A stretch of DNA of 64,000 nt from Halieaceae bacterium (GTDB lineage: Bacteria; Pseudomonadota; Gammaproteobacteria; Pseudomonadales; Halieaceae), in NCBI GenBank assembly GCA_902623175.1, contig CACNSR010000003.1:124001-188000 (forward strand). The letters are read 5' to 3'. The notes beneath the pieces were generated by a model. That model was not told the origin of the DNA and did no database searches. It was given only the letters and a program-made list of their open reading frames with translations. The position numbers and the translations under genes were made by a program. Shown piece after piece: positions 6,538 to 21,967 of this stretch. Numbering within the stretch: position 1 is the stretch's first letter; the number at the start of each line of letters is the position of its first letter.

Positions 6538-6652
6538 ATAGGCGGCGCCGGAAAGTACAGCGGCAAAGCGCGCACCCCGAATAGTAGTGACGCAAGTGAG
6601 CTTGCTCACTATGAGCTGCAATCGTCACGAGCCCTTACAGGAGTTTTTATCA

Positions 6653-8170
6653 GTGCGAATAGCAATCGTTGGTGCAGGAATCTCGGGCATCGCAGCGGCA
6701 CAGTCCCTCCTCAAGACGGGCCATGATGTCCAAATTTATGAAAAGTCCAGCCGGATCGGCGGCGTGTGGGCTATGGGTTATCCGGGCGTCAGATTGCAGA
6801 ACACTCGGGATCAATACCGCCTTATGGATGTTCCCTGGAGCCCAAAGCCAGACTTGCATCCAACTAGCGCACAGGTACAACAGCATCTGAATGACGCGAT
6901 TGATCAGCTTGATCTTCCTCTCAAGTTAGACCACGAAGTCACAAAACTTGAGGAGACAGCAGGTGGCTGGCGGCTGCACTATCGAAACGATGGCGATACC
7001 GGACAGCAGGATTTCGACTTCGTCGTGCTCTCCATTGGTCAGTATTCAAGTGGGAAGCAATCTCCAAAATTCCCCGGCCAAGACGAATTCAAAGGGGAAA
7101 TTATCACCGAGCGAGAGATTACGGATCTCAGTGTCTTTGCCGGAAAAAAAGTGCTGGTTGCTGGCTTCGGTAAAAGCGCGCTAGATATGGCGACCTTCGC
7201 GGTAGATCAAGCCAGCGAGGTACACCACCTCTTCCGGACGCCGCGCTGGATGGTCCCCGTTCGTATATTGGGCGTCCACTACTCACGCCTTCTGTTTTGT
7301 CGCATGGGTACCTTTTTAATGCCCAGCTGGGTGCAACCCAACGCTACCGAGGCTTTTATCCACCGTAAATTAGGCTTCCTTGTCCGTGGCAATTGGCGCC
7401 TAGTGCAGAGCATTGTGAGACTCCAGAAGTACCTACTGGGACTCGGTAAGAGCGCAGCGGTAAAACGCCGCTTGGCGTCACTCACACCTAAGCACGACAT
7501 CGTTAGCGACTTTCGCTCTGCATCAGCTATGCAACCCGAGATGTATTTGAAACATATCGCTAGGGAGCGACTCCTTCCACACCAAGGGGAGTTGCAGGCA
7601 TTTACGAAGAACGGTGTGGTGCTTGAGGGTGGCAACGCCATTGACTGTGATCTTGTTGTGCTCAGTCTTGGCTCAGGCTCGCCAACATTTCCGTTCCTAC
7701 CGGACAAATATCGTGCCCTACTGGAGAGCGAGTCCGATGGTGTCCAGCTTTACAGGCATTTGCTGCACCCGGAAGTCCCCAATATCGCCTTTGCGGGCTT
7801 CAATCATGGCTTTATGCACGTACCAGCAGTTGAAATTGGCATGCTGTGGTTGTCCGCCGTGCTCTCCGGTGACCTGACCCTGCCCAGCGCCGAGGAAATG
7901 CAACAGACCATAAAAAAAGTTCAGCAATGGAAGCGCGACTGTGTCAACTTTGAACCGTCACGCTCCTGTGCGGTGAACACCCGGTTTCAGCAATACCTGG
8001 ACGTTCTCTTGAAGGATCTTGGACTTAACCCCTACCGCAAGTTACCAAATATTTTGGCCGAATTATTTAGCCAGTATGGCCCAGATGACTACGTGGACAT
8101 TTTTGAGGAATACAGGGCCGGGCGCACTCAGCGATCTACGAATCTGCGCACACTTGCATTGGATACGTGA
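6653..8170 (+). CDS. Flavin-containing monooxygenase (FMO/BVMO-like)
   Basis: The 505-residue flavoprotein has two dinucleotide folds: GAGISG at residues 7-12 for FAD, and AGFGKSALDMA near residue 170 for NADPH. The segment VWAMGYPGVRLQNTRDQYRL fits FMO and Baeyer-Villiger relatives. The family fingerprint FxGxxxHxxx[WF] is altered to FKGEIITEREI (around residue 145), so the usual His is Thr. I chose GTG at 6653 because AGGAG lies nine bases upstream and the Rossmann strand starts at once; an earlier in-frame start at 6587 is less likely. It probably oxygenates an indole or another N- or S-containing ring, feeding the isatin hydrolase encoded 98 bp downstream. The substrate is inferred. Confidence 0.86.
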   Translation: MRIAIVGAGISGIAAAQSLLKTGHDVQIYEKSSRIGGVWAMGYPGVRLQNTRDQYRLMDVPWSPKPDLHPTSAQVQQHLNDAIDQLDLPLKLDHEVTKLEETAGGWRLHYRNDGDTGQQDFDFVVLSIGQYSSGKQSPKFPGQDEFKGEIITEREITDLSVFAGKKVLVAGFGKSALDMATFAVDQASEVHHLFRTPRWMVPVRILGVHYSRLLFCRMGTFLMPSWVQPNATEAFIHRKLGFLVRGNWRLVQSIVRLQKYLLGLGKSAAVKRRLASLTPKHDIVSDFRSASAMQPEMYLKHIARERLLPHQGELQAFTKNGVVLEGGNAIDCDLVVLSLGSGSPTFPFLPDKYRALLESESDGVQLYRHLLHPEVPNIAFAGFNHGFMHVPAVEIGMLWLSAVLSGDLTLPSAEEMQQTIKKVQQWKRDCVNFEPSRSCAVNTRFQQYLDVLLKDLGLNPYRKLPNILAELFSQYGPDDYVDIFEEYRAGRTQRSTNLRTLALDT

Positions 8171-8268: not shown

Positions 8269-9054
8269 ATGACAAGTGCAGTGTTGATGGACTTAGCGGT
8301 GGGACTAGTTAGCGGTTCGATCAAAGTGATCGACCTCAGTGTGACTCTCTCGCCGGAGACGCCTATTCTGGAGCTGCCTGAAGAGTTTGGTTGGGGCAAA
8401 TCCTGGCCCTTTTCAAAGGAGGAAATCTCTCGCTACGATGATCGTGGGCCCGCGTGGTATTGGAACAACATCAAATGCGGTGAACACACAGGCACACACT
8501 TTGACGCGCCAATTCATTGGGTGACGGGCCAGGATCTTCCGGACAACGCAACCGATACGTTGCCACCAGAGCGGTTTATCGGGCCCGGAGTAGTTATTGA
8601 TGCTGCTGCTGAGGCAGCGAGTGACCCCGATTTTCTGATGTCACTAGAGTTTGTAAAATCCTGGGAAGCAAAAAACGGCAGAATTCCAGACGGCGCTTGG
8701 GTGCTTTATCGCACCGATTGGTCTAAAAGAGAATCCAAAGAGGCTTATCTCAACAAGGACGAGACAGGGGGGCACACGCCTGGCTGGGATCCAGAGACCG
8801 TCGCCTTTTTGGCGCAAGAGAGAAATATTATTGGGGTAGGGGTTGAAACCGTCGGAACAGATTCTGGCCAGGCGGCGAGTCAGGATCCAATGTTCCCCTG
8901 TCACAACCTGATGCACGGCGCTAACAAATGTGGTTTGGCGAGTTTACGAAATCTTGATCAACTTCCCACAACAGGTTTTATCCTGATTGCGGCGCCACTC
9001 AAAATCGAGCAGGGGTCGGGCAGTCCGTGTCGAGTGATCGCACTGGTACCTTAG
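8269..9054 (+). CDS. Cyclase-family metal hydrolase, probable isatin hydrolase
   Basis: The 261-residue member of the cyclase family (Pfam PF04199) carries the metal-binding motif HTGTHFDAPIHW with H73, H77 and D79, plus CHNLMHG (H212, H216) near the end. Kynurenine formamidases of this family are nearer 210 residues. The longer form, with a segment such as ISRYDDRGPAWYWNN before the motif and KIEQGSGSP at the end, matches what I recall of manganese-dependent isatin hydrolase, which opens isatin to isatinate. ATG at 8269 follows AGGAG by seven bases. It sits 21 bp before the 2-oxoacid oxidoreductase genes, which suggests that isatinate is their substrate. Kynurenine formamidase or another lactam/lactone hydrolase is the alternative. 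Confidence 0.82.
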   Translation: MTSAVLMDLAVGLVSGSIKVIDLSVTLSPETPILELPEEFGWGKSWPFSKEEISRYDDRGPAWYWNNIKCGEHTGTHFDAPIHWVTGQDLPDNATDTLPPERFIGPGVVIDAAAEAASDPDFLMSLEFVKSWEAKNGRIPDGAWVLYRTDWSKRESKEAYLNKDETGGHTPGWDPETVAFLAQERNIIGVGVETVGTDSGQAASQDPMFPCHNLMHGANKCGLASLRNLDQLPTTGFILIAAPLKIEQGSGSPCRVIALVP

Positions 9055-9075
9055 GGATAAACCGAGACTCTTCCG

Positions 9076-11262
9076 TTGGCTGAGCGTTCTTTCACTGACG
9101 AAGTCAAAAAGCTCCGCGCCGGGCAGGGTGAGGTGTTCAAGGGTGAAGGGATTCTCGCCATCACCAAAGCGCTCCTGCAGTCTGGCGTGTCTTATGTGGG
9201 CGGCTATCAAGGTTCTCCTATCTCGCATCTGATGGATGTGCTCAACGATGCACAAGATATCCTCGGTGACTTGGGCGTCCATTTCGAAGCTAACGGTTCC
9301 GAGGCTACCGCAGCAGCTATGTTGTCGGCCTCTATCAATTATCCGCTGCGTGGAGCCGTGACTTGGAAGTCAACTGTGGGTACCAATGTCGCATCTGATG
9401 CGCTGTCAAATCTAGCTTCTTCCGGGGTGACCGGCGGCGCTATGGTGATTGTTGGTGAGGACTACGGAGAGGGCTCAAGCATTATGCAGGAGCGAAGTTA
9501 TGCGTTTGCTATGAAAGCGCAGATGTGGCTCCTGGACCCGCGACCCAACTTACCCAGTATCGTTGATATGGTTGAAAAGGGCTTTGAGCTCTCGGAGGCA
9601 TCCAACACGCCGATCTTCTACATGATGCGTATCCGCGGGTGTCATGTGACTGGTGAGTTTGTTGCTCGGGATAATGTTGCCCCCGAATTCCACAGCGAGG
9701 CGCCAGTCACCCCAAATCGGGAGCCTGAGAAAATTATCTTGCCGCCGTTTGTCTATGCGCAGGAACGTGAAAAGATCGCCGAGAGGCTACCCGCAGCGAT
9801 TCGCTTCGTCGAGGACAATGCGCTTAATGAGGTTTTCCCAGGGCGATACGACTCGGTTGGAATCATCACCTGCGGAGGCTCATACAACACGGTGATTCGC
9901 GCCCTGCAGCGACAAGGGCTGGCCGACGTGTATGGCGAGACCGATGTCCCCATTTACTGCCTTAATGTCGCTTACCCGCTGATCCCGAGAGAGCTGGTTA
10001 AATTCTGTGCCGGTAAAGAGCAGGTGCTGGTGCTGGAGGAGGGGCAGCCGGAGTACATCGAGCAGGGGATCCAGACGGTTTTGCGTCGGCAGGACGTGCA
10101 AACCCGTGTTTACGGTAAGGACATCATGCCCATGGCAGGGGAGTACACGGGGCAGGTGATGTTGGAGGGTATTACCCGATTTATTCAGGCGGCATCGCGA
10201 CAAAATATACCCATGAAGCTCTCGCTTGATGTTGTACTGAGCACAGAGACGCCGGTGTCAGAAGAGGATATCGGCCGGCTGATGGGCGAGTTGCCGCCTC
10301 GACCCGCGGGTCTATGTACGGGATGTCCAGAGCGTCCGCTGTTTTCTGCCATTAAGCAATTGCAGGAAGAGATGGGTCCTTTTCACATCTCATCTGATAT
10401 CGGATGTCACTCTTTCGCCACCGCAGCCCCTTTTAACCTGGGTAACACCATCATGGGCTATGGCCTCTCGCTGGCCAGTTCGTCAGGGATGCGCCACGCA
10501 CTGCCGCACAAGGCAATCAGCATCATGGGGGACGGTGGTTTCTGGCATAACGGTCTCACCAGTGGTGTCACCAGTGCGGTATTCAATGAGCATGATGGCC
10601 TCTTGATTATAATCGACAACGGTTACTCGGCTGCAACCGGTGGGCAGGATATCCCGTCCCTGGTGGAGCCCAATCTGATCGCTACTACCCTAGATGCGAA
10701 TCAACCTAAACGTGAAAGCTGGCAGGACATTGAGGATGCCTGTCGCGGCGCCGGCGTAAAGTGGATCCGCACGGTGAGTACCTACAATATCGCCGCCATG
10801 AAGGAGACGCTCCGTGCAGCCCTAACCACCAATGATGCCGGGCTAAAGGTGGTGGTGGCGGAGGGCGAATGCATGTTGAATCGCCAACGTCGGGTGAAGC
10901 CATTGATCCGACAGGCGGTCTCGGAGGGTCGGCGGGTGAAGCGGGCGCGTTTTTACATCGATCCAGAGACCTGCACGGGTGATCATGGTTGCATCCGCCT
11001 CTCGGGATGCCCCTCTTTGACGATCCGAGAGAATCCTGATCCGTTGCGCACAGATCCCGTGTCTTACGTCGACAATAGCTGTGTTGGTTGCGGTGTCTGT
11101 GGTACCAATGCACACTCTGCTGTGCTGTGTCCCTCTTTCTCAAGGGTGGAGATGATTCACAACCCTACTGTGTGGGATCGTTTTCTCGATACCACTCGTG
11201 CTCGGATGCGAGAATGGTGGCGGGCGCGCGATCGGAAGCGCATGGAGCAACGCCAGTTCTGA
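9076..11262 (+). CDS. iorA: 2-oxoacid:ferredoxin oxidoreductase, IorA-type alpha subunit
   Basis: The 728-residue subunit has the indolepyruvate ferredoxin oxidoreductase alpha layout: an N-terminal pyruvate-oxidoreductase domain (GYQGSPISHLMDVL near residue 43), the CTGCPERP motif (C414, C417), and a ThDP site GDGGFWHNG...DNGYSAATGG (about 483-517). A C-terminal two-cluster ferredoxin domain follows. Its first cluster reads C633-x2-D636-x2-C639 with C645, so Asp replaces one usual Cys. The second has C669, C672, C675 and C685. The family decarboxylates aryl 2-oxoacids to acyl-CoA with ferredoxin reduction. TTG at 9076 is the assumed start. Next to isatin hydrolase, the substrate may be isatinate, giving 2-aminobenzoyl-CoA. 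Indolepyruvate or phenylglyoxylate-like acids are alternatives. Confidence 0.88.
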   Translation: MAERSFTDEVKKLRAGQGEVFKGEGILAITKALLQSGVSYVGGYQGSPISHLMDVLNDAQDILGDLGVHFEANGSEATAAAMLSASINYPLRGAVTWKSTVGTNVASDALSNLASSGVTGGAMVIVGEDYGEGSSIMQERSYAFAMKAQMWLLDPRPNLPSIVDMVEKGFELSEASNTPIFYMMRIRGCHVTGEFVARDNVAPEFHSEAPVTPNREPEKIILPPFVYAQEREKIAERLPAAIRFVEDNALNEVFPGRYDSVGIITCGGSYNTVIRALQRQGLADVYGETDVPIYCLNVAYPLIPRELVKFCAGKEQVLVLEEGQPEYIEQGIQTVLRRQDVQTRVYGKDIMPMAGEYTGQVMLEGITRFIQAASRQNIPMKLSLDVVLSTETPVSEEDIGRLMGELPPRPAGLCTGCPERPLFSAIKQLQEEMGPFHISSDIGCHSFATAAPFNLGNTIMGYGLSLASSSGMRHALPHKAISIMGDGGFWHNGLTSGVTSAVFNEHDGLLIIIDNGYSAATGGQDIPSLVEPNLIATTLDANQPKRESWQDIEDACRGAGVKWIRTVSTYNIAAMKETLRAALTTNDAGLKVVVAEGECMLNRQRRVKPLIRQAVSEGRRVKRARFYIDPETCTGDHGCIRLSGCPSLTIRENPDPLRTDPVSYVDNSCVGCGVCGTNAHSAVLCPSFSRVEMIHNPTVWDRFLDTTRARMREWWRARDRKRMEQRQF

Positions 11263-12749
11263 TGTCACGAGAGGACGCGACCATCAATATGGTGATCGCT
11301 GCACTTGGGGGGGAGGGCGGCGGAGTGCTGACCAACTGGCTCATTGCGGCGGCGGAGCAAAACGATTGGTGGTGTCAGAGTACTTCGCTTGCAGGGGTAG
11401 CTCAGCGGACGGGCGCTACGATTTATTACCTCGAGTTTATGCCAAGGCAAGCGAGTGAGCGTCCGCCTGTGATGTCACTCTTTCCTGCGCAAGGAGATAT
11501 CGACATAGCAGTCGCCTCGGAAATTGCTGAGGCGGGAAGAATGATCAGCCGCGGCTTTATCTCTCCAGACAGAAGTTTGTTGATTGCGTCAGACCATCGG
11601 GTTTTCGGCATCACGGAAAAGAGTGCCGCGGGAGATGGGTCGGTAGACAGAGAGCTGATCATTGAGATGGGTGAGCGCTACGCCAGAAGCTTCATTCATT
11701 TTGATATGTCAGAAATTGTTCAGCGACAGGGCACTGTCATCTCGGCGGCACTGCTGGGTGCGATCGCTGGGAGCGGGGCGCTGCCATTTGCAGGCCACTG
11801 CTTTCGCAAACTGCTCTCATCTGGGGGCAGTGCGCCTGCCAACCTCGCAGCGTTTGACGAGAGTTTTCGTCGCGCCCAGCCCGGCGGTGTCGGCGAGTAT
11901 GTGCCTCCTGAGGTAAAGGCCTTCTCGCTGCCAGTAGCGAGTAACCCCTTAGGCGAGCGCTGGTTGCCGCGCATAGCGGATCTGCCAGCGGCACTGCAGG
12001 AAATGGCCTACCACAGCGTGAACAGACTGATCGATTATCAGGACGAGCCCTACGCGGAAGAATGGTTTAGTCGTGTGTCAGCTCTAATAGATCGTGATCT
12101 GGATCGAAAAAGCTACTCTCTCGCCCAAGAGGCCGGTCGACACCTTGCACTCTGGATGGCGTTTGAGGATATACCTCGCGTTGCCCAACTTAAAGTGCGC
12201 CCTGACAGAGAGTCCATGATTCGATCAGAGGTCAAAGCGGCCGCCGGTCAGCCGGTCGCAGTGGCTGAATTTTTTCACCCACGGATTGAGGAGGTGGCAG
12301 CCTTGCTCCCCGTGAGTTGGGGGTCGGCATTGCTGAGGTCACATACCGCAAAGCGCTGGTTGAGTCGACTCCTTGGACCTAGAACTTTAAGAACGGACCG
12401 TATCAACATGCAGGTATTGTTGCGTTGTTTAGCGGGTTTTCGTCGCTTTCGGCGGTCTACGTTCGGTTATGCGCATGAGCGTAAAATGATCGACCGATGG
12501 TATGACGCCGTGCTGTCTGCCGATGAACACGACGTGGCTATGGCGATTGCGGCGCTCGGACGGTTGGTGAAGGGTTACGGGGAGACTCGCCATCGCACGA
12601 CATCGCGGCTGATGCAGATTCTGGATTATGTGGAGCATGCACCTGACAGCGACTCGTCTAAAATTAAAGCGCTTCAATTGAAGGCTATGGAGCCAGAGTC
12701 AAACTTCAATACGGGTCACGCGGTTTCCTCTAATCCGGAGCTCGCTTGA
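11262..12749 (+). CDS. iorB: 2-oxoacid:ferredoxin oxidoreductase, IorB-type beta subunit (long form)
   Basis: The 495-residue partner of the alpha subunit shares one base with its stop (TGATG). The N-terminal gamma-type domain has NMVIAALGGEGGGVLTNWL and QSTSLAGVAQRTGATIYYLE, as in IorB. The extra C-terminal half, about 300 residues, is typical of the long aerobic-proteobacterial beta-family proteins and has no assigned function. ATG at 11262 gives the family N-terminus; a longer in-frame reading from 11088 would lie wholly inside the alpha gene and was rejected. No dedicated ferredoxin gene is seen nearby. Confidence 0.86.
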   Translation: MSREDATINMVIAALGGEGGGVLTNWLIAAAEQNDWWCQSTSLAGVAQRTGATIYYLEFMPRQASERPPVMSLFPAQGDIDIAVASEIAEAGRMISRGFISPDRSLLIASDHRVFGITEKSAAGDGSVDRELIIEMGERYARSFIHFDMSEIVQRQGTVISAALLGAIAGSGALPFAGHCFRKLLSSGGSAPANLAAFDESFRRAQPGGVGEYVPPEVKAFSLPVASNPLGERWLPRIADLPAALQEMAYHSVNRLIDYQDEPYAEEWFSRVSALIDRDLDRKSYSLAQEAGRHLALWMAFEDIPRVAQLKVRPDRESMIRSEVKAAAGQPVAVAEFFHPRIEEVAALLPVSWGSALLRSHTAKRWLSRLLGPRTLRTDRINMQVLLRCLAGFRRFRRSTFGYAHERKMIDRWYDAVLSADEHDVAMAIAALGRLVKGYGETRHRTTSRLMQILDYVEHAPDSDSSKIKALQLKAMEPESNFNTGHAVSSNPELA

Positions 12750-13753
12750 ATCTGGATGAACCATTCCGGCTGAGGGGTATAGCGGCCGGTGTCGCTCTCA
12801 GTGCTGCTCTTTCTGTGATGGCCTATGCCATTTCGTATCGGTACGGTGCACCAGGCATGTTAATTGGGCTGTTGCTGGGTTTGTCGTGTCATTTTCTCAG
12901 TGCGTCCGATCGCTTTACGAGAGGTCTGGTTTGGGCATCGGGACCCTGCCTCAGGTTCGGGGTGGCGTTGCTGGGTCTCAGGTTGAGCATTGGGGATGTT
13001 GCCTTGTTGGGCTGGCCGGCGCTGATAGCCGTCTGCGGTGCAGTTGTTATGACACTGGCTTTTGGTGTGCTGTGCTCACGTTTGCTTGGGTGTGGGAGAG
13101 ATCTTGGTTTGTTGACCGGAGGTGCCGTGGGTATCTGCGGCGCCTCAGCGGCGATAGCCATCAGCGCAGCACTCCCGGATTCGGATGCGAAGCAACGGCT
13201 CACCTTGTTTACTGTTATCGGAGTGACTACCCTCAGTACTGTTGCAATGGTGTTCTATCCCATTGCCGGTGACTTTCTTAATTTCAGCTCGAGAGACATG
13301 GGCTTTTTTATAGGAGCGACTATTCATGATGTCGCTCAGGTAGTGGGGGCGGGTTATAGCGTCTCTCCCGAGACCGGTGACCTCGCCACATTCGTTAAGC
13401 TGTTGCGCGTGGCTATGTTGGTTCCGATTGTGATGGCGATTGCACTGGTATGCCGTATTTCCTTGCGCGCGCAAGAGGCTCGCCAGTCTTTCTTAATATC
13501 GCCCCCTATTTTCTTGCTCGGCTTCATCACACTGTTCCTGTTGAACAATACCGTGCTGTTACCCGAGACGCTCACGGAGGGACTGTCTCACCTCGCCACC
13601 GCGCTATTGCTTTTGGCGGTAACGGCGCTTGGCGTCCGGACTTCATTGCGCGAGGTTGCCTCGATTGGCTGGCGACCGCTTATCTTGCTTGGAGGAGAGA
13701 CCCTCTTCCTCGCTGCGACAATTGCCGGTGTATTACTGCTGGGGATCGCCTGA
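12746..13753 (+). CDS. YeiH/UPF0324-family membrane protein
   Basis: The 335-residue integral membrane protein has about ten hydrophobic segments and the YeiH-family signature GGAVGICGASAAIA near residue 128. Members are called putative sulfate exporters, but evidence is thin. The TTG start overlaps the iorB stop by four bases (TTGA), which suggests translational coupling, so it may export or import something linked to the pathway. Its 3' end overlaps the convergent MaoC gene by 21 bp. Confidence 0.8.
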   Translation: MNLDEPFRLRGIAAGVALSAALSVMAYAISYRYGAPGMLIGLLLGLSCHFLSASDRFTRGLVWASGPCLRFGVALLGLRLSIGDVALLGWPALIAVCGAVVMTLAFGVLCSRLLGCGRDLGLLTGGAVGICGASAAIAISAALPDSDAKQRLTLFTVIGVTTLSTVAMVFYPIAGDFLNFSSRDMGFFIGATIHDVAQVVGAGYSVSPETGDLATFVKLLRVAMLVPIVMAIALVCRISLRAQEARQSFLISPPIFLLGFITLFLLNNTVLLPETLTEGLSHLATALLLLAVTALGVRTSLREVASIGWRPLILLGGETLFLAATIAGVLLLGIA

Positions 13754-14239
13754 CTCTTGGGGCCGACGCTCGGCAAGAATGTCGATGTCGAATTGCATCA
13801 CTTTATTACCGTACTGGTTAAATGCTTCATTGCGCGATCGAATCATGCCCCATTTTTCCCGTATTACTTGGCCTGGCTTGGCAATGATTTCATAGGTGTA
13901 GGTTAGCGTATGCCCTGGCCTCACGGGCTCTAACCATTGGAGATCGCTGATGGCAACGCCCGCACCATTTCGGCGGCCGTCGTTAACGCCTTGCGCATAA
14001 ACCTCCATATAGTCGACCATTTTGCGCATCCACATAGCTGTCAGTAGCCACGGACTGGCGGTCAAGCCTTGCCGGTGGTTGAGCCGAGCCTGTTCAGGGT
14101 CGGTCGACTCGGGCCTGGGGTCAAAGTTTTTCGCGAATTCAACAATCTCCAGCTCGCTGAAGGTATGCGAGCCAAAGACATGAAACTCGCCCACAGGCAG
14201 ATCTTCAAACCATCGGTCCCTGAGATATAGGTCGGTCAT
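13733..14239 (-). CDS. MaoC-like dehydratase, second of a tandem pair
   Basis: The 168-residue hot-dog protein begins WFEDLPVGEFHVFGSHTFSE and has IVEFAKNFDPRPESTD, where the second motif residue is changed from the usual His-containing FHxD. Its start (ATG at 14239) overlaps the preceding hot-dog gene by four bases. Paired short MaoC proteins often work as heteromers in which only one chain keeps the catalytic dyad, and that may be so here (inference). It is the last gene of the MarR-controlled operon starting at 19881. Confidence 0.82.
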   Translation of the reverse strand: MTDLYLRDRWFEDLPVGEFHVFGSHTFSELEIVEFAKNFDPRPESTDPEQARLNHRQGLTASPWLLTAMWMRKMVDYMEVYAQGVNDGRRNGAGVAISDLQWLEPVRPGHTLTYTYEIIAKPGQVIREKWGMIRSRNEAFNQYGNKVMQFDIDILAERRPQESGDPQQ

Positions 14240-14703
14240 GTCGATTCTGCCAGTGCCGCATCGATTGCGATGGCCGCTTTTGCGGTCATGGTTGCCACAA
14301 TCGCGCCGTTTCCGTTGCAAACTTCGATTTCTAGAGTTTGGCAGCGGGTATTGGCTATGGGACTTTCCTCATCGGATGTACCGAGTGTGACGCGAACGCT
14401 GATTTGCTCGTTCACAAATGTTGGACGGCTCCACTTCAACCAACTGACGGAGGACATTTCCACGAAGGGCAGGCCGTTGGCTAGCAAAGTCTCTATGACT
14501 AGTCGTGTTGCCAAAGCCGCGATATGCCAGCCGCTAGCACACAGGCCCCCGAATATGGATTGATCTGCCGCACTGGCATCCAAATGATAAGGCTGAGGAT
14601 CGAACTGTGAAGCGAAGGCCGCAATGGCGCTTTGATCTAGCTCGATGCTCTTGCTTTCCATGTAGTCGTTGGGGGAGGGGCTGGCCAAAATAACGCTCCG
14701 CAA
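14236..14703 (-). CDS. MaoC-like dehydratase, first of a tandem pair
   Basis: The single hot-dog protein of up to 155 residues carries IAAFASQFDPQPYHLD, the active-site segment, and GGLCASGWHIAALATRLV. The start is uncertain: TTG at 14703 gives the longest form and ATG at 14661 a form of 141 residues; neither has a strong ribosome site. It lies 72 bp downstream of the acyl-CoA dehydrogenase gene and is coupled to the next hot-dog gene. It is probably an enoyl-CoA hydratase step in degradation of the opened ring. Confidence 0.82.
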   Translation of the reverse strand: MRSVILASPSPNDYMESKSIELDQSAIAAFASQFDPQPYHLDASAADQSIFGGLCASGWHIAALATRLVIETLLANGLPFVEMSSVSWLKWSRPTFVNEQISVRVTLGTSDEESPIANTRCQTLEIEVCNGNGAIVATMTAKAAIAIDAALAEST

Positions 14704-14775
14704 TCACGAGATATCGCCATTCTAACCCTAAGTCATATGCGGCATCCGACCACCTCTGCCCTAAGAAACACGCTG

Positions 14776-15948
14776 CTAGGCGTGGTTGGCTATGGTCTGC
14801 CTCGCAATGATAGTGGTCTGAACTTCGCTGGCGCCCTCATAAATCCGGAGCGCGCGAATATCTCGGTACAAAGCCTCGACAATATAGCCCTTGGTGACGC
14901 CTTTACCGCCATGCAATTGCACTGCAGCATCAATAACTTGCTGTGCGGTTTCGGTGGCGTGGTATTTGGCCATCGCCGCTTCTCGAGTGACACGCTCCGC
15001 GGCGCAGTCTTTGGTCCAAGCAGCGCGGTAAACCAGTAGCGCGCTACTATCGACACCCAGTGCCATCTCACCGATTTTGGCCTGAACAAGCTGAAGATCT
15101 CCTAGCTTGCCTCCAAAGATGTTGCGCTCGGAGGTGTAGTCGAGCGTCTCGTCCAGCGCGCGTCGGGCCATGCCTAGCGCTGCGGCGGCGACGGTAGAGC
15201 GAAAAACATCTAGCGTTGCCATTGCAATACCAAAGCCTCTGCCTTCCTCCCCTACCAGATGTGCTCTTGGTATTCGGCAGTCACTGAATGTCAGGGTGCC
15301 AAGAGGATGGGGTGCTACCAGATCGATGCGTTCGGTGACCTCGAATCCGGGTGTGCCTGCTTCGACGACAAAGCAGCTGATGCCTTTTGCACCTCCGGTG
15401 TCGTCGGTGCGCGCGAAGACGGTGTAAAAATCAGCGATGCCGGCATTGGATATCCATGTTTTGGTGCCGTTGAGCACCCACTGGTCGCCATCGGCTCGGG
15501 CGCTACAGGACATAGCGGCCACGTCCGACCCTGCCTCGGGTTCTGATAGCGAAAATGCGGCAATCTTATCGCCAGTAGCCACCGCATTTAGGTAGGTCGC
15601 TTGCTGCGCCTCATCACCGAATAGTGAAATCGGGCCGCTACCCAGTCCCTGCATCGCAAACGCAAAGTCGGCGAGCGCATTATGGCGTGCCAGCGTCTCC
15701 CGGATAATGCAAAGGCTTCTGACTTCAAGTTTTTTGTGTTGCCCTCCTGCACTGGCAGGGACGGCATAGCTTGTAAAACCAGCGTCACCTAGAGCCTTGA
15801 CAATGGCTTTGCAGGTACCGTCTAAATCGTGATGCTCCTCTGCTGTGAGAGAGGGGATGTTACGATTCGCCCACTCATCAAGCCGGGCGGCGAGCTCTCG
15901 ATGCTCGTCGCTAAAAAAGGGCCACTGTAAAAAGCTGCCGTCGCTCAT
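14776..15948 (-). CDS. Acyl-CoA dehydrogenase
   Basis: The 390-residue FAD flavoenzyme has the standard acyl-CoA dehydrogenase order: an N-terminal helical domain, a middle beta domain with [15 protein letters not shown] and WISNAG, and a C-terminal helical domain with [11 protein letters not shown]. The catalytic base is the Glu in [17 protein letters not shown] site precedes ATG at 15948. It stands 30 bp after the crotonase gene in the operon led by the 2-aminobenzoyl-CoA monooxygenase/reductase. It is therefore likely to dehydrogenate a CoA thioester from the cleaved ring rather than a fatty acid (inference). It needs electron-transfer flavoprotein, which is not encoded here. Confidence 0.92.
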
Positions 15949-15978
15949 GATTTCTTCTCCCGGCGAATGGCCATGGTG

Positions 15979-16791
15979 TCAGTCACCCTCGAACACGGGC
16001 TGCTGTTTTTTTACAAATGCATTGTAGGCGCGATGAAAATCCTCGGTCTGCATACAAATTGCCTGTGCCTGAGCTTCGCACTCAATCGCTTGGTCGACGG
16101 ACATGTTCCATTGGTGGTGAAGCTGGTTCTTCGTGATGCCATTGGCAAAAGTGGGACCTGCGGCGATGCGAGTCGCGGCCGCCATGGCATCTTCAAGCGG
16201 TGCCGCGCTCAATCCATTGAAGAACCCCCAGCGTTCACCCTCCTCGCCGCTCATCGAGCGTCCAAAGTAGAGCAGTTCGCTCGCCCGCCCTTGTCCGATA
16301 ATGCGTGGCAGCATAGAGCACGCGCCCATATCACAGCCCGCCAGGCCGACCCGGTTGAATAGGAAGGCCACCTTCGCGCCCTCAGTGGCGTAGCGCAGGT
16401 CACTGGCCATGGCAATAATCGCGCCTGCGCCTGCACAGATGCCCTCTACGGCACTGATCACAGGTTGTCGGCAGGCCCGCATCGCTTTTACGAGGTCCCC
16501 CGTCATGCGAGTGAAGGCCATCAGATCTCTCATGTTCATCTCAGTAAGAGGCCCAATGATTTCGTGTACGTCGCCTCCGGAGCAAAAGTTGCCACCCGCT
16601 CCGGTGATGACCACGACATCAACGTCGGAGGCGTAAGTTAGGTTTCTAAACAAATCCCTCAATTCTGCGTAGGACTCGAAGGTGAGTGGATTTTTGCGCT
16701 CAGGTCGATTAAGCGTAATGGTCGCAACGCGGTTCTCGCACTCCCATAAAAAGTGCTGCGCTTCGTAGTCCAAGAGTGATGTTGTTTGCAT
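15979..16791 (-). CDS. Crotonase-family enzyme, candidate ring-opening acyl-CoA hydrolase
   Basis: The 270-residue enoyl-CoA hydratase/isomerase-superfamily protein has oxyanion-hole segments NFCSGGDV and GICAGAGAI. At the place of the first catalytic Glu of enoyl-CoA hydratase (normally in a PE-x-x-x-G context) it reads [14 protein letters not shown], so that Glu is missing and an Asp lies close by. Such changes are seen in crotonases with other chemistry, for example ring hydrolases like BadI. I chose ATG at 16791 for its GGGGAG site; a start at 16830 would run into the upstream gene. Position in the anthraniloyl-CoA operon makes hydrolytic ring opening a reasonable guess. Confidence 0.88.
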
Positions 16792-16807
16792 GATTATGCT
16801 CCCCGTG

Positions 16808-17563
16808 TCAGGCGGTGCCGCCGCCGTCAATCGAGACCGCTTGCCCTGTTACGCTGGCCGCTCCATCACTACACAACCACCTCACTGCGCTCGCGACTTC
16901 CGATGCCTTGATCAGGCGCCCTTGCGGATTGCTTTCAGTGAAGTGCTGCAGGGCATCCTCTGCAGTCCGTCCAGTTTTGCTGACGATTTCTGCGATGGCT
17001 GAGCGAACGATATCAGTATCTACGTACCCTGGGCAGATCGCATTGACCGTTATACCTCGCGTTGCGACCTCAAGGGCCAGCGCACGTGTCATCCCGAGAA
17101 CGGCATGCTTCGATGCGCAGTAGCCGCTGACATAAGGAAATCCCCGCAGCGAGGCGACACTGGCGATGCTGATAACGCGGCCCCAGCCCGCATTCAGCAT
17201 GTTCTCAAGTGCGATTTGGGTGCAGTGGAAGACGCCATTAACGTTAACGTCCATGGTTCGCTGCCATTCAGTGAAATCGAGGCGATGAAAGGGTGCAGTG
17301 GGGGCCACTCCCGCGCAGTTCACCAATATGTCGATATATCCCAAGTGTTCTCGGGCGGTGGCAAAACACTCGACCATTCCGGCCCGGTCGGTCACGTCAC
17401 CGGCCAAGGCCTGACTGCCGCTACCTAAGGACGTTGACAGGGTTTGCAGCGGTTCGATGCGTCGTCCGACCAGTGAAACCCGGTATCCCTCAGCATGCAG
17501 TTGCCGACTGATGACTTCTCCAATGCCCGAGCCAGCGCCAGTGATTAACGCATGACGGGTCAC
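16808..17563 (-). CDS. SDR, 3-hydroxyacyl-CoA dehydrogenase-like
   Basis: The 251-residue classical SDR has TGAGSGIG (residues 8-15), NCAG, the catalytic Ser in SIASVASL, and [10 protein letters not shown]. Arg residues after beta-2 (LVGRRIEP) suggest NADP(H). Its start overlaps the stop of the monooxygenase/reductase gene by four bases, so the two are translated together. It probably oxidises or reduces a hydroxy- or oxo-acyl-CoA after ring reduction. Confidence 0.9.
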
Positions 17564-19881
17564 GAAGCCGCCTCGCGTTCACGTTCGGCCAAAGTATGGG
17601 CCTGCCGATAGCCGAGAAAATACTGGTGTTGCTCGATAGCACCGGGTCCCTGATAGCCTAGCTCAGCTGCCGCATGAAGCGTCCAATTTGGGTCGGCTAG
17701 GTGTGGGCGAGCCAGGCAGACTAGATCAGCTCGTCCTGCCGCGATAATGCTGTTGACGTGATCAGTCTCGTAAATGTTGCCCACAGCGATGGTCGGTATA
17801 TCGCCATCATTGCGGATGATGTCCGAAAGCGGTGTCTGGAACATGCGCCCAGGTTGAGGTTTAGCGGAGTGACTGGTTTGTCCCGTCGAGACATTGATGA
17901 TGTCCGCGCCTGCGTCGATAAATGCCTGCGCTATCAGCAGTGCGTCTTGCTCTGTAACGCCATCGTCGCCCATCCAATCATGGGCGGAAATGCGCACTGA
18001 CATGGGTTTTTCTTGAGGCCACGCGGCGCGCATGGCTCGACAAACCGCCACCGGGTAACGCAACCTGTTCTCTAGGGAGCCGCCGTATTCATCGTCGCGT
18101 TGATTTAGCACCGGGGTGATGAATGACGAGAGAAGATAACCGTGTGCCGCGTGCATCTCGATCATATCGAATCCGGCTTTATCAGCACGCCGCACTGCGG
18201 CGACGTGCTGCTCCAAGACCATATCCATGTCATCGCTTGTCATGGCTTGCGGCACCGGGCTGTAGGTGTCGAAGGGTAATGCGCTAGCAGACAGAAGCGG
18301 CCATTGCTCGTGTTCGGGGAGAGGCTCGTCAAGAATTTTCGGATCCCACTTCCATGGCTCCAGCGTTGAGCCTTTGGGGCCAGCATGGCCAATCTGGATA
18401 GCCATCTTGGCCTGGGTGTGCTGATGAACAAAGTTGGTGATGCGACGCCAGGCATCAGTGTGTGCGTCGCTCCAAATGCCTGTGCATCCCGGCGTGATCC
18501 GCCCCTCTGGGCTCACATTGGTCATCTCAGTGTAGACCAGTGCAGCGCCACCTTTGGCGAGACCGCCGTAGTGCACTAGGTGCCAGTCGTCGGGCATGCC
18601 ATCTGCGGCGCTGTACATGCACATGGGCGAGACGCAAACCCGATTTTGCAATGACATATCTCTGAGTGAGAAGGGCAGGAACATGGGAGGCACGGGGTCG
18701 TTCGCGGCTTCACCGAGGTGTCGCTGTGCCAGGTGTGTTTCCATGGAATTCAGCCAGACTTTGTCCCTGAGGCGTAGGTTCTCGTGGCTGACGCGCTGAC
18801 TGCGTGTCAGCATTGAATAGTTAAACTGCTTTAAGTCAAAGGCATCGATGTAGCGCGGCACATTCTCAAACCAAATCATGGCATTACGGGCGCTATTTTG
18901 CAGCCGCAGCACATCAATCTTGCGTTCTTCTTGGTACTGCCGCAGCGCGGATGCGATGGGCTCGCCGCTATCGAGATGATGCGCCAGTGAAATGGCGTCT
19001 TCCAACCCTAATTTCGTTCCTGAGCCAATCGAAAAATGAGCGGTATGCGCAGCGTCTCCGATAAGCACCAGCCGGTCATCCTTAATCCAGTTGTCGCAGT
19101 AGACCGCGGGAAAGTTGATCCACGCGGATCCTCTGATATGAGCCGAATTAGTTAGCAGCGAGTGACCACCGAGATACTCCTCGAAAATCCGTCGGCAGGT
19201 TTCGGCGCTCTCGTCGTGTGACATTTCATGGAAGCCGAGCGCATCGTAAACCTCGGGCGTTGTTTCGACGATGAATGTTGAGGTGCTGTCGTCGAATTGG
19301 TAAGCATGAGCCCAAATCCAGCCATGTTCGGTGCGCTCAAAAATGAAGGTGAACGCGTCACGAAACGTCTGGTGTGTGCCCAGCCACACGAATTTGTTGG
19401 GCCGCGTTTCTATAGTGCAGCCAAATTCCTCAAGATAGGTGTTGCGGATTTTAGAGTTCAGGCCATCGCTGGCAACAATCACATCGGCATCGGCAAACCT
19501 TGTACCGATATCACCCAACTCAATCTCCTGCTCAAAATGCAGTCCAACGCCCAACTCTCTTGCCCTCTCGTGCAGAAGCTGCAAGAAGCGCTTTCGGCCT
19601 AGGCCAATGAATCCGTGACCGCCGGAACGCTCTACTGCCCCCGATACATGGCAGTCAATGAGGTCCCAGTGAATGAACTCGTCAACAATGCGTTGGGCGC
19701 TGATTGGGTCGTTAGCCGTAATGTTGTCGACGGTCTGGTCTGAAAAGACGATTCCCCATCCAAAGGTGTCGTCTGGCTTATTGCGCTCGTATACCTCGAC
19801 CTCGTGTTCAGGATTCCGGAGTTTGAGGCTAATCCCCAAATATAAGCCCGCGGGGCCTCCTCCAAGACAGATGACTCTCAC
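17560..19881 (-). CDS. 2-aminobenzoyl-CoA monooxygenase/reductase (fused FAD monooxygenase and OYE)
   Basis: The 773-residue fusion is the key enzyme of aerobic 2-aminobenzoyl-CoA degradation as known from Azoarcus evansii. It hydroxylates and reduces the ring to 2-amino-5-oxocyclohex-1-enecarboxyl-CoA. Residues 1 to about 390 are an aromatic-hydroxylase-type FAD domain: GGGPAGLYLG at 7-16 and LVLIGDAAHTAHFSIGSG near 272. From about 395 an old-yellow-enzyme barrel begins (LPFSLRDMSLQNRV, SPMCMYSAADG, IQIGHAGPKGS, HAAHGYLLSSFI). The close relative salicylyl-CoA 5-hydroxylase has the same fusion, so the exact aryl-CoA is not proven. It heads a six-gene operon ending at 13733 and diverges from marR across two operator copies. 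Confidence 0.9.
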   Translation of the reverse strand: MRVICLGGGPAGLYLGISLKLRNPEHEVEVYERNKPDDTFGWGIVFSDQTVDNITANDPISAQRIVDEFIHWDLIDCHVSGAVERSGGHGFIGLGRKRFLQLLHERARELGVGLHFEQEIELGDIGTRFADADVIVASDGLNSKIRNTYLEEFGCTIETRPNKFVWLGTHQTFRDAFTFIFERTEHGWIWAHAYQFDDSTSTFIVETTPEVYDALGFHEMSHDESAETCRRIFEEYLGGHSLLTNSAHIRGSAWINFPAVYCDNWIKDDRLVLIGDAAHTAHFSIGSGTKLGLEDAISLAHHLDSGEPIASALRQYQEERKIDVLRLQNSARNAMIWFENVPRYIDAFDLKQFNYSMLTRSQRVSHENLRLRDKVWLNSMETHLAQRHLGEAANDPVPPMFLPFSLRDMSLQNRVCVSPMCMYSAADGMPDDWHLVHYGGLAKGGAALVYTEMTNVSPEGRITPGCTGIWSDAHTDAWRRITNFVHQHTQAKMAIQIGHAGPKGSTLEPWKWDPKILDEPLPEHEQWPLLSASALPFDTYSPVPQAMTSDDMDMVLEQHVAAVRRADKAGFDMIEMHAAHGYLLSSFITPVLNQRDDEYGGSLENRLRYPVAVCRAMRAAWPQEKPMSVRISAHDWMGDDGVTEQDALLIAQAFIDAGADIINVSTGQTSHSAKPQPGRMFQTPLSDIIRNDGDIPTIAVGNIYETDHVNSIIAAGRADLVCLARPHLADPNWTLHAAAELGYQGPGAIEQHQYFLGYRQAHTLAEREREAAS

Positions 19882-20016: not shown

Positions 20017-20511
20017 ATGGATCCATCAAGTGCCAAGTTAAGCCTAGACCATGAATCTCGCATTGAACACGATGACCATCAAGCAATCCGACTTTGGCTC
20101 CGCTTGCTCACGTGCACCAATCTGGTTGAACGGCACCTTAGGAATCGTCTGCGGAGCGAATTCGGCATCACTCTGCCCAGATTCGATCTGATGGCGCAGC
20201 TGGCACGTGAGCCACAGGGACTAACTATGGGTGATCTTTCTCAGCGGATGATGGTTTCAGGCGGCAACGTATCCGGTATTGCCACTCAGTTGGAGAAAGA
20301 GGGACTGATTAGCCGAGAACCTGTCCCGGGCAACCGTCGTGCTTTTTGCGTCACGTTGACTGCGGCGGGTGACAAACGATTTGCTGAGATGGCGACTGCC
20401 CATGAGGGCTGGATAGTGGACTGCTTGGGTGAGCTAAGTGACGCCGAGTATGAGCACATGATGGCAATGCTAAAAGACATCAAGGCTGGCGTGAGCGCTT
20501 TAAAGGACTGA
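20017..20511 (+). CDS. MarR-family transcriptional regulator
   Basis: The 164-residue MarR protein has a winged helix: GLTMGDLSQRMMVSGGNVSGIATQLEKEG-type recognition region (residues about 68-96) and the wing GLISREPVPGNRRAFCVTLT, flanked by dimerisation helices. MarR proteins often answer to phenolic acids or aryl-CoA thioesters and are found in aerobic 2-aminobenzoate clusters. It diverges from the monooxygenase/reductase operon and is followed at 4 bp by an OYE gene, so it is probably autoregulated. The predicted sites are the five ATTTTA-N4-TAAAAT copies. Confidence 0.92.
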   Translation: MDPSSAKLSLDHESRIEHDDHQAIRLWLRLLTCTNLVERHLRNRLRSEFGITLPRFDLMAQLAREPQGLTMGDLSQRMMVSGGNVSGIATQLEKEGLISREPVPGNRRAFCVTLTAAGDKRFAEMATAHEGWIVDCLGELSDAEYEHMMAMLKDIKAGVSALKD

Positions 20512-20515
20512 TATC

Positions 20516-21967
20516 GTGTGGAAGCCGCCGGAAAGAATTAAATATCAAACCACTGTGGAGCGCTGGCCTACCGGGGAAGAGGCGGTGGGAAGCCGCCTTT
20601 ACTCGCAATTATCCTCCCCGAACCTGTCACTGGAGCAACGTACGTGGGTCCCTGCGATGGTGCCATGGCGTGCTAGCGAGGAGGGCGACGTTACCCAAGA
20701 CGTGATCGATTGGTATGCGCGGTTCGCAGAAGGCATGCCCGGAGCGATTGTGGTTGAGGCAACGGGCATCAGGGATATCCCCAGTGGGCCGCTTCTGCGC
20801 ATCTCGGACGAACGATATGTCGCAGGGCTGCGGCGGCTGACGGATGCCGTCCGAGAGGCGAGCGGTGGTCGGACTCGATTGCTAATTCAACTCATTGATT
20901 TTCTGACCATTCGGCGACGACCTCAACCAGAGACTTTTTTTAATCGTTTCCTCAAGGTGACATCCACACATCGGCAACGGCTGGGTATGGAGCGACAAGA
21001 TGAGCAGATTGTGAGGCAGCGCCTTTTCTCACTCAGTGACTCTGAGTTGGAGGATGTGCTCTCGCCGCGGGAGCTGGAATCGCTTCGGCAGGGCTATCGT
21101 GAACGCGTTACCGATACCCATCTGCCGGCGATTTCGGCGTTGCCCACTACTCTGCCTGTGCTTTTCGCGCAGGCAGCAAGGAGAGCGCAAGCGGCGGGGT
21201 TCGACGGTGTCGAGTTGCATTATGCTCATGCCTATACCATGGCGTCTTTTCTGTCCGCCACAAATACTCGCTCCGACGGCTACGGCGGCAGCCGGGAACA
21301 TCGGGTGCGACTGCCGCTCGAGGTTTATGAGGCTGTTAGGGCGGCGGTCGGTGCGGATTACGCGGTCGGCTGCCGATTCCTGAGTGATGAAATTATCGCG
21401 ACGGGGAGCGATATCGATGATGCCTGCTTCTTTGCCAAGGAATTTGCGCTCGCGGGCATGGATTTCCTGAGCTTGTCCCGGGGCGGCAAGTTTGATGATG
21501 CCAAGCAGCCTAGAGTGGGCGGGGCAGCCTATCCGTATACAGGGCAAAGTGGTTATGAGTGCATGCCGGCGTATCTCTCGGATGAACGAGGTCCATGGGG
21601 TCGAAATAGCGAACCTGTGGCGCAGATAAGAGCAGCTGTTCATTCTGCGGGGATGAGCACCCCGATCATCTCGACGGGCGGGATTCACAGCTTCGATCAA
21701 GCAGAGGCGCTGCTCTGTGAGGATAAAGCGGACGTGGTGGGATTCGCTCGGCAGGCGCTGGCGGACCCGGACTGGTTTCAAAAAGTCAGGCTCGGTCGTG
21801 GAAAAGAGGTGCTGTTGTGTCGTTACAGCAACTACTGCGAGGGTTTGGACCAAAAACATAAACAGGTAACGTGCGAACTATGGGATCGGGCTGACCTTGA
21901 TTCCCCTGACGCAGTGCTGGCAACAGACGGAAAGCGGCGCCTAACAGCACCTCACTGGAGCCCATAA
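20516..21967 (+). CDS. NADH:flavin oxidoreductase, old-yellow-enzyme family
   Basis: The 483-residue FMN barrel protein is related to OYE and to the N-terminal part of 2,4-dienoyl-CoA reductase: AQAARRAQAAGFDGVELHYA followed by TNTRSDGYGG, ISTGGIHS, and VVGFARQALADPDW near the end. The C-terminal cysteine set is C-x5-C-x11-C (CRYSNYC through VTC), not the full four-Cys Fe-S pattern of dienoyl-CoA reductase. An internal insert of about 80 residues (positions about 130-210) is longer than usual. The GTG start lies 4 bp after marR. A second ene-reduction in the pathway is the likely role; the substrate is unknown. Confidence 0.85.
   Translation: MWKPPERIKYQTTVERWPTGEEAVGSRLYSQLSSPNLSLEQRTWVPAMVPWRASEEGDVTQDVIDWYARFAEGMPGAIVVEATGIRDIPSGPLLRISDERYVAGLRRLTDAVREASGGRTRLLIQLIDFLTIRRRPQPETFFNRFLKVTSTHRQRLGMERQDEQIVRQRLFSLSDSELEDVLSPRELESLRQGYRERVTDTHLPAISALPTTLPVLFAQAARRAQAAGFDGVELHYAHAYTMASFLSATNTRSDGYGGSREHRVRLPLEVYEAVRAAVGADYAVGCRFLSDEIIATGSDIDDACFFAKEFALAGMDFLSLSRGGKFDDAKQPRVGGAAYPYTGQSGYECMPAYLSDERGPWGRNSEPVAQIRAAVHSAGMSTPIISTGGIHSFDQAEALLCEDKADVVGFARQALADPDWFQKVRLGRGKEVLLCRYSNYCEGLDQKHKQVTCELWDRADLDSPDAVLATDGKRRLTAPHWSP

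Follow-up and report, generated by a model that had tools for sequence, protein, structure and literature searches.

A 64,000-nucleotide stretch of DNA from a Halieaceae bacterium (contig CACNSR010000003.1, in our numbering G000:C3:124001-188000, called the window below) probably allows the 2-aminobenzoyl-CoA pathway to be entered without a ligase. In this route, deduced from sequence comparisons, a pair of oxidoreductase subunits, IorA and IorB, would act as an isatinate:ferredoxin oxidoreductase that forms 2-aminobenzoyl-CoA. A predicted isatin hydrolase (IH) would open isatin to isatinate, that is, 2-aminophenylglyoxylate. IorAB would then decarboxylate isatinate oxidatively with CoA, giving 2-aminobenzoyl-CoA, CO2 and reduced ferredoxin, and a fused 2-aminobenzoyl-CoA monooxygenase/reductase (ABMR) would monooxygenate and reduce the thioester. 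Finally, a short-chain dehydrogenase (SDR), an enoyl-CoA hydratase, an acyl-CoA dehydrogenase, hot-dog proteins and RidA would complete ring removal and deamination. The individual enzymes are of known kinds and their combination appears to be a new variant; we infer that IorAB acts on isatinate, that it uses CoA and that its product passes on to ABMR.

The genes for IH (8269-9054), IorA (9076-11262) and IorB (11262-12749) lie on the plus strand and are followed by a gene for a YeiH-like membrane protein, the successive gaps being 21, -1 and -4 bp. The 21-bp spacer (9055-9075) leads to the TTG start codon of IorA, whose stop codon overlaps the IorB start in TGATG. On the minus strand, the ABMR operon (13733-19881) converges on this run. 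ABMR itself (17560-19881) joins an FAD monooxygenase to an Old Yellow Enzyme domain (PF01494 and PF00724) and scores 1166.6 bits with NF006101, above the cut-off of 1078. An earlier note on this DNA had described a cyclase-family hydrolase with the motif HTGTHFDAP, followed after 21 bp by both oxidoreductase subunits, and a fused ABMR in the same region; the coordinates of the open reading frames and the profile match confirm both.

The IH open reading frame codes for 261 amino acids from an ATG preceded by AGGAGA, and matches PF04199. In a sequence search of the PDB, its best matches are all isatin hydrolases: 5nmp (335 bits, E 2.1e-99), then 5nna, 5nnb and 4j0n (285 bits). The next solved protein, 8f9x, reaches 97 bits and kynurenine formamidases at most 33. 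GLQC or GLAS together with a manganese site marks a protein as active on isatin, and WXW or FXW is the motif of the isatin pocket (PMC6117287; this and the other papers below are cited from excerpts). The window protein has a manganese site HxxxHxD with the following His (HTGTHFDAPIH), WYW and GLAS. Judged by these matches and motifs, the product of 8269-9054 is probably an isatin hydrolase, as the earlier note had supposed, and of the GLAS type.

IorA carries a TPP_enzyme_C domain, for thiamine pyrophosphate (TPP), and IorB a POR domain plus DUF6537 (PF01558, PF20169). Across 39 aligned IorA proteins the TPP motif GDGG...N (G485-D486-G487-G488, N515) is invariant, as are the cysteines C633/C639/C645 and C672/C675/C685, with C669 nearly so; the two cysteine groups appear fit for [4Fe-4S] clusters. 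The pair shares a TPP/Fe-S alpha subunit and a POR-type beta subunit with the canonical indolepyruvate:ferredoxin oxidoreductase, but IorA scores only 283 bits against the equivalog cut-off of 650.9 (TIGR03336, IOR_alpha), and IorB, with its DUF6537, falls in PRK08312 (NF006179, indolepyruvate oxidoreductase beta; 508.3 bits, above the curated cut-off of 348). By profile score, then, IorA is not a standard indolepyruvate enzyme. A structure model of IorA (pLDDT 71.4, pTM 0.61), of moderate quality and serving superfamily placement only, resembles over residues ~1-400 a pyruvate:ferredoxin oxidoreductase (9bt4_A, TMt 0.64) and an oxalate oxidoreductase (5c4i_A, TMt 0.67), while the top matches by E-value are other TPP enzymes with low TM. 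A sequence search of the PDB with IorA gave no match. The phenylglyoxylate:acceptor oxidoreductase of Azoarcus evansii converts an aryl-2-oxoacid and CoA to an aroyl-CoA and CO2, and its subunit make-up is unlike that of IorAB. The proposed IorAB reaction would be of this type.

The arrangement of these genes recurs in relatives. Searching for IorA in a single genome of each species turned up 72 loci, and in 68 of these the sequence ahead of IorA, 900 bp or longer, allowed a test for IH. IH lies directly upstream of IorA on the same strand in 51 of these 68 and elsewhere in the locus in 11; none was seen in six (L015, L019, L041, L048, L052 and L054). IorB directly follows IorA in 57 of 57 testable loci. 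The IH-IorA-IorB arrangement is therefore not due to chance. In L014 (8841-9614) and L024 (15735-16508), one Luminiphilus and one Halieaceae, the tandem IH is missing and a divergent IH (49-50% identity in L014 and L024) sits inside the ABMR operon between the genes for MaoC and acyl-CoA dehydrogenase. One could read this as a need to keep the activity.

A FastTree of IorA (96 rows, root position not fixed) sets apart, with support 100, a clade of nine rows without IH or ABMR inside 13 kb. Among the remaining 87 rows, IH lies within 5 kb in 64 and within 13 kb in three more (67 in total). The separate clade consists of L170, L171, L172, L179, L186, L188, L191, L083 and L054, the last on a contig of only 3.5 kb; L083 has an alpha-hydroxy acid oxidase, which suggests a mandelate-type substrate.

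The three gene types also travel together across genomes, a check that the earlier note had suggested. We used a phylum sample of 398 genomes and a sample of 100 genomes of the window's family. Per genome, two candidates were scored for ABMR and IorA (phylum), three for AbmG, the ligase introduced below (phylum), and 14 for AbmG (family); since only the best first-look candidates were scored, extra gene copies may be missed. In the phylum sample, ABMR occurs in 71 genomes, IorA in 29 and IH in 26. IorA and ABMR coincide in 27, IorA and IH in 23, and IH and ABMR in 24 (Fisher p 1.6e-20, 9e-29 and 7e-18 respectively, not corrected for relatedness). In the family sample, IorA is present in 18 genomes and ABMR in exactly those 18.

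We gave the name AbmG to a clade of 56 rows that holds, with few exceptions, the ligases near ABMR elsewhere. Our query, from Comamonas, shares 53% identity over 99% with the ligase that adjoins ABMR on pAL1 of Arthrobacter Rue61a. Gene order suggests that this is ARUE_113p00220, which adjoins a putative ABMR gene and for which anthranilate-CoA ligase activity is reported (PMC3534580). The host genome (2.39 Mb, 85% complete) has 17 matches to the AMP-binding family PF00501, in ~15 genes. None lies in the window (the earlier note had seen no CoA ligase in 8269-19881), and the nearest (C3:111135) ends ~20 kb upstream of IH. An AbmG-type ligase was not found in this 85% complete genome, its best match to the AbmG profile (built from 19 proteins) having an E-value of 2.6e-52. 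Of its own ligases, the 10 (of ~15) entered in the ligase tree all fall outside the AbmG clade, their exact placement being unsure because of long branches. Among the 100 family genomes AbmG is likewise not found, the best score being 388 bits against at least 765 for true members. Thus, because no family genome exceeds 388 bits, the 18 with ABMR are without a visible AbmG.

In the phylum sample, the AbmG profile picks out 65 of the 398 genomes at 765-968 bits, with the next score at 436, and all 65 have ABMR. Six genomes have ABMR without AbmG (G000, G055, G241, G296, G349 and G376). IorA is present in five of these six versus 22 of the 65 AbmG-bearing genomes (Fisher p 0.027). In the sixth, G241, the ligase near ABMR belongs to another clade. 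Position tells a similar story: where IorA is no more than 12 kb from ABMR, AbmG is that close in three of 14 loci, versus 49 of 56 where IorA is not (70 of 73 loci kept; G315, G196 and G200, near contig ends, were excluded). However, the limit of 12 kb was chosen after IorA had been seen 10-11 kb from ABMR in genus g117, which makes up eight of the 14 linked loci. The Fisher value of 3.8e-6 is too good because of this post hoc limit and the dominance of g117, and the test on the ABMR tree given below is fairer. Five g117 genomes (G055, G071, G123, G171 and G274) carry a ligase-free run of RidA, acyl-CoA dehydrogenase, enoyl-CoA hydratase, MarR, SDR and ABMR, flanked by IH and, further out on that side, IorA; in a sixth, G051, the contig ends just after ABMR. 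An FAD oxidoreductase lies between IH and IorA in the two of these genomes in which it was read (G071 and G051). AbmG is kept elsewhere in five of the six, G055 being without it, and in G194 and G197, also of g117, both AbmG and IorA are close to ABMR.

The ligase tree, made quickly, with long branches among the host's own ligases and with some loci counted again through their seed copies, separates the AbmG clade (support 99) from a clade of 18 rows around the ligase of the Roseibium iad cluster, which we call IadF-type (SH-aLRT 100). The ligases beside the Halieaceae core belong to the IadF clade and not to the AbmG clade. Ten core-adjacent ligases (L025, L026, L028, L029, L031, L038, L039, L042, L044 and L074) were considered as anthranilate-CoA ligases and rejected, as all of them group with the Roseibium ligase.

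Two known systems resemble the window. Isatin-forming iad loci, for which iorAB (there iadA and iadB) serve as markers (PMC9613470), break down indole-3-acetate in Variovorax, Bradyrhizobium and Achromobacter. They share IorAB, a hydrolase annotated as cyclase/formamidase (IadI), and the intermediates isatin and isatinic acid (PMC9613470, PMC12633357). Some Halieaceae relatives are iad-like, with a core that adjoins an IadD-like Rieske protein, whereas the window's genome has no close IadD-like Rieske oxygenase (best 91.8 bits, 28% identity over half of the query). As excerpted, the published iad schemes stop at anthranilic acid and assign no reaction to iadAB. In PMC8383072 the name iad stands for other genes, and that paper was not drawn on. 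The second system is the aerobic 2-aminobenzoate pathway, ligase plus ABMR, of Arthrobacter Rue61a (PMC3534580), which shares with the window ABMR together with SDR, enoyl-CoA hydratase, acyl-CoA dehydrogenase, RidA and MarR. The window differs in that no AbmG ligase was found and the neighbours of its operon are instead IH and IorAB. This pathway, by way of 2-aminobenzoate-CoA ligase and ABMR, also operates in Azoarcus evansii. The searched excerpts of openly licensed PMC literature, those of PMC10374108, PMC11630574 and PMC12114110 among them, contain no report of a route from isatin through isatinate to 2-aminobenzoyl-CoA, which may be in print elsewhere.

Several observations weigh against a CoA-using, ligase-free IorAB route. 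Anthranilic acid is also a product of wild-type Variovorax, which has iadAB (PMC9613470), and iadC-K2, nine genes that by name and count exclude iadA and iadB, restores it (preprint PMC12633357); this restoration is at odds with a need for IorAB in making anthranilate. Two compounds, C8H7NO3 (isatinic acid by its formula) and C7H7NO, strongly accumulate only in iadC-K2 overexpressors, and the authors read both as steps towards anthranilic acid (PMC12633357). The build-up of C8H7NO3 would fit IorAB consuming isatinate, but may merely reflect overexpression. Gene linkage is incomplete as well: among 35 loci with enough flank, ABMR lies within ~10 kb of IorA in 19 and not in 16. Of the 27 genomes in the phylum sample that hold both IorA and ABMR, 22 also keep AbmG, as do Azospirillum thermophilum, Alloyangia pacifica and Caballeronia SBC1 outside this sample, and G327 combines IH, ABMR and AbmG without IorA. 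In the host itself, with its genome 85% complete, any of the ~15 AMP-binding genes might act on anthranilate. On the ABMR tree, eight independent pairs differ in IorA linkage; on average, AbmG went the opposite way in 4.4 of them, went the same way in 0 and did not differ in 3.6 (median p 0.125). Genome-contig loci were entered in this test by script as 'IorA linked, no AbmG', and the ligase tree has no AbmG row from them. With a constant direction and few events, the relatedness-corrected test is only suggestive. Finally, oxalate oxidoreductase, which is not known to need CoA, is among the structural matches of IorA, so the fold alone cannot decide whether IorAB uses CoA.

Much of this could be accommodated if IorAB acted on isatinate without CoA, releasing anthranilate or 2-aminobenzaldehyde, and another acyl-CoA ligase of the genome made 2-aminobenzoyl-CoA. 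The resemblance to oxalate oxidoreductase and the host's own AMP-binding genes would suit such a scheme, as would the isatinic and anthranilic acids reported in an iad strain (PMC9613470) and the C8H7NO3 and C7H7NO of the overexpressors (PMC12633357). We nevertheless consider it unlikely. The family lacks AbmG scores above 388 bits despite ABMR in 18 genomes, the window holds no AMP-binding gene, none of the 10 host ligases placed in the tree joins the AbmG clade, and the genome's best AbmG match is no better than the one given above. Moreover, anthranilate forms in Variovorax without iadAB (PMC12633357), and for that reason need not be the product of IorAB. The earlier note had also proposed that free anthranilate is bypassed. 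In other organisms this does not always hold, as Variovorax and the genomes with both routes attest. Its ligase-free route as a whole finds support in comparative genomics: elsewhere a ligase usually lies near ABMR unless IorA has joined it.

Another thioester is also conceivable, though quite improbable: IorAB might make a different aroyl-CoA, for instance by turning 2-hydroxyphenylglyoxylate into salicyloyl-CoA, with the fused enzyme then being a salicylyl-CoA 5-hydroxylase. NCBIfam does name NF006101 salicylyl-CoA 5-hydroxylase/oxidoreductase, and Caballeronia SBC1 joins IorAB, a thioesterase, the fused enzyme and a gentisate-type cupin protein. However, IH and RidA, the latter pointing to amine chemistry, are frequent partners, and on Arthrobacter pAL1 the neighbour of the anthranilate-CoA ligase gene bears the same NCBI name. 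Under NADH limitation, the products of ABMR include 5-hydroxyanthraniloyl-CoA (PMC3534580), which could account for the cupin clusters. Least probable of all, to our mind, is that IorAB acts upstream on indolepyruvate or another arylpyruvate and lies beside IH only through a shared indole pathway: family naming, the IOR_alpha match and PRK08312 favour it, but the IOR_alpha score is far below its cut-off, IorA tracks ABMR and IH across genomes as an indolepyruvate enzyme would not have to, and the nine-row IorA clade without IH or ABMR stands apart from the 87 other rows, 67 of which have IH within 13 kb.

If IorAB forms 2-aminobenzoyl-CoA, the cupin clusters may represent a second downstream branch, since ABMR can release 5-hydroxyanthraniloyl-CoA. 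The Caballeronia SBC1 locus runs IorA, IorB, thioesterase, ABMR, cupin and FAH, with AbmG on another replicon, and Arthrobacter pAL1 carries a similar set in which a ligase replaces IorAB. A gentisate-type cupin protein also lies no more than 13 kb from IorAB in L085, L084, L093, L138, L142, L175, L177 and L185; the annotated L084, L085 and L093 have in addition a thioesterase and an FAH-family hydrolase.

The modules upstream are varied. In Parahaliea, Haliea and Kineobactrum, the core adjoins a Rieske protein, an IadF-clade AMP ligase and a thiolase. The Kineobactrum Rieske alpha subunit matches 9o71 and 7yls/8h2t, the latter presumably Variovorax IadD, at 453-454 bits, with the next best at 179. 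Azospirillum thermophilum has a single run of MarR, IorA, IorB, reductase, Rieske alpha and beta, IadF, SDR, ABMR, SDR, enoyl-CoA hydratase, acyl-CoA dehydrogenase, thioesterase and RidA, its AbmG lying elsewhere on the plasmid. Alloyangia pacifica packs an indole/styrene monooxygenase, ABMR, RidA, IH and IorAB into ~17 kb, with an AbmG-clade gene ~7 kb beyond IorB. In Roseibium aggregatum, IH lies within an iad-type cluster with no IorAB inside 15 kb. The regions of Variovorax SPNA7 and Burkholderia arboris (L197 and L199) yielded no IorAB or ABMR, and on a Variovorax linuron plasmid an IorA gene is flanked by IS1071 copies. In two Rhodobacterales loci (L056, 4946-8534; L059, 4944-8544), genes named by eye as xanthine-dehydrogenase-like molybdenum hydroxylases lie just upstream of IH, a possible indole-to-oxindole step. 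Searches of the host genome for a source of isatin, one of them without a positive control, found neither a kynureninase nor anything that matches the indole/styrene monooxygenase of Alloyangia. Where iad Rieske genes are lacking, the upstream oxygenase may be a luciferase-like FMN monooxygenase (window 3411-4520, plus strand; PF00296, in 25 of 72 loci), which is SfnG/RutA-like and below both cut-offs (SfnG 179 bits against 382.95). In the Tabrizicola locus L068, such a gene adjoins what appears, by eye, to be a flavin reductase. A second candidate upstream enzyme is an FMO-like flavoprotein (6587-8170, plus; PF00743) just before IH.

The rest of the window's cluster is conserved to varying degrees. 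A RidA family protein of the enamine/imine deaminase type (2332-2724, plus) is part of the conserved neighbourhood; it shares 58% identity with the RidA-like proteins of relatives, whose cluster occurs in 41 of 72 loci. The YeiH-like (Cons_hypoth698) membrane protein (12746-13753, plus; PF03601) overlaps iorB by 4 bp and keeps this position in part of the relatives. On the minus strand follow a hot-dog fold protein (13733-14239), whose FAS1_DH match is weak (PF13452, 20.1 bits, below the cut-off of 22) and whose gene order is conserved; a MaoC-like hydratase (14236-14703; PF01575); an acyl-CoA dehydrogenase (14776-15948; Acyl-CoA_dh_1/M/N), the same partner as in other ABMR operons; an enoyl-CoA hydratase family protein (15979-16791; NF006107, 477.5 bits, cut-off 330); and an SDR known from its profile match (16808-17563), which overlaps ABMR by 4 bp and is a conserved partner elsewhere. 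A MarR-family regulator (20017-20511, plus; PF12802/PF01047) is divergent from the ABMR operon and adjoins ABMR in many relatives; next to it lies a second, separate Old Yellow Enzyme family protein (20516-21967), present in 19 of 72 loci. The nearest named relatives of the host are Halieaceae/Luminiphilus contigs, with IorA identities of up to 98%. In Luminiphilus syltensis NOR5-1B (L022, 17472-19792), ABMR is split into two overlapping frames by a frameshift or a sequencing error, as it is in G482. A record titled as a Klebsiella pneumoniae metagenome-assembled genome (L051) has IorAB, IH and an ABMR relative, and its title looks wrong.

Beyond the window, we favour, if narrowly, a broader view in which the IorAB clade consists of isatinate:ferredoxin oxidoreductases (2-aminobenzoyl-CoA-forming). 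These would form a widespread ligase-free junction shared by indole, auxin and other upstream modules, feeding either ring reduction by ABMR or a 5-hydroxyanthranilate/gentisate-type branch; this would also be the function of iadAB, and in Halieaceae the junction would have wholly replaced anthranilate-CoA ligase. According to an old observation cited in PMC6221969, an Alcaligenes strain converts indole via isatin into gentisate, with one step unexplained, and our proposal would give a testable reading of it. In such clusters, annotation may be misled by the names 'indolepyruvate ferredoxin oxidoreductase' and 'salicylyl-CoA 5-hydroxylase'. If the proposal is true, iadAB would acquire a function, bacteria that hold ABMR without its usual ligase would make sense, and isatinate would enter central metabolism without the ATP cost of activation.

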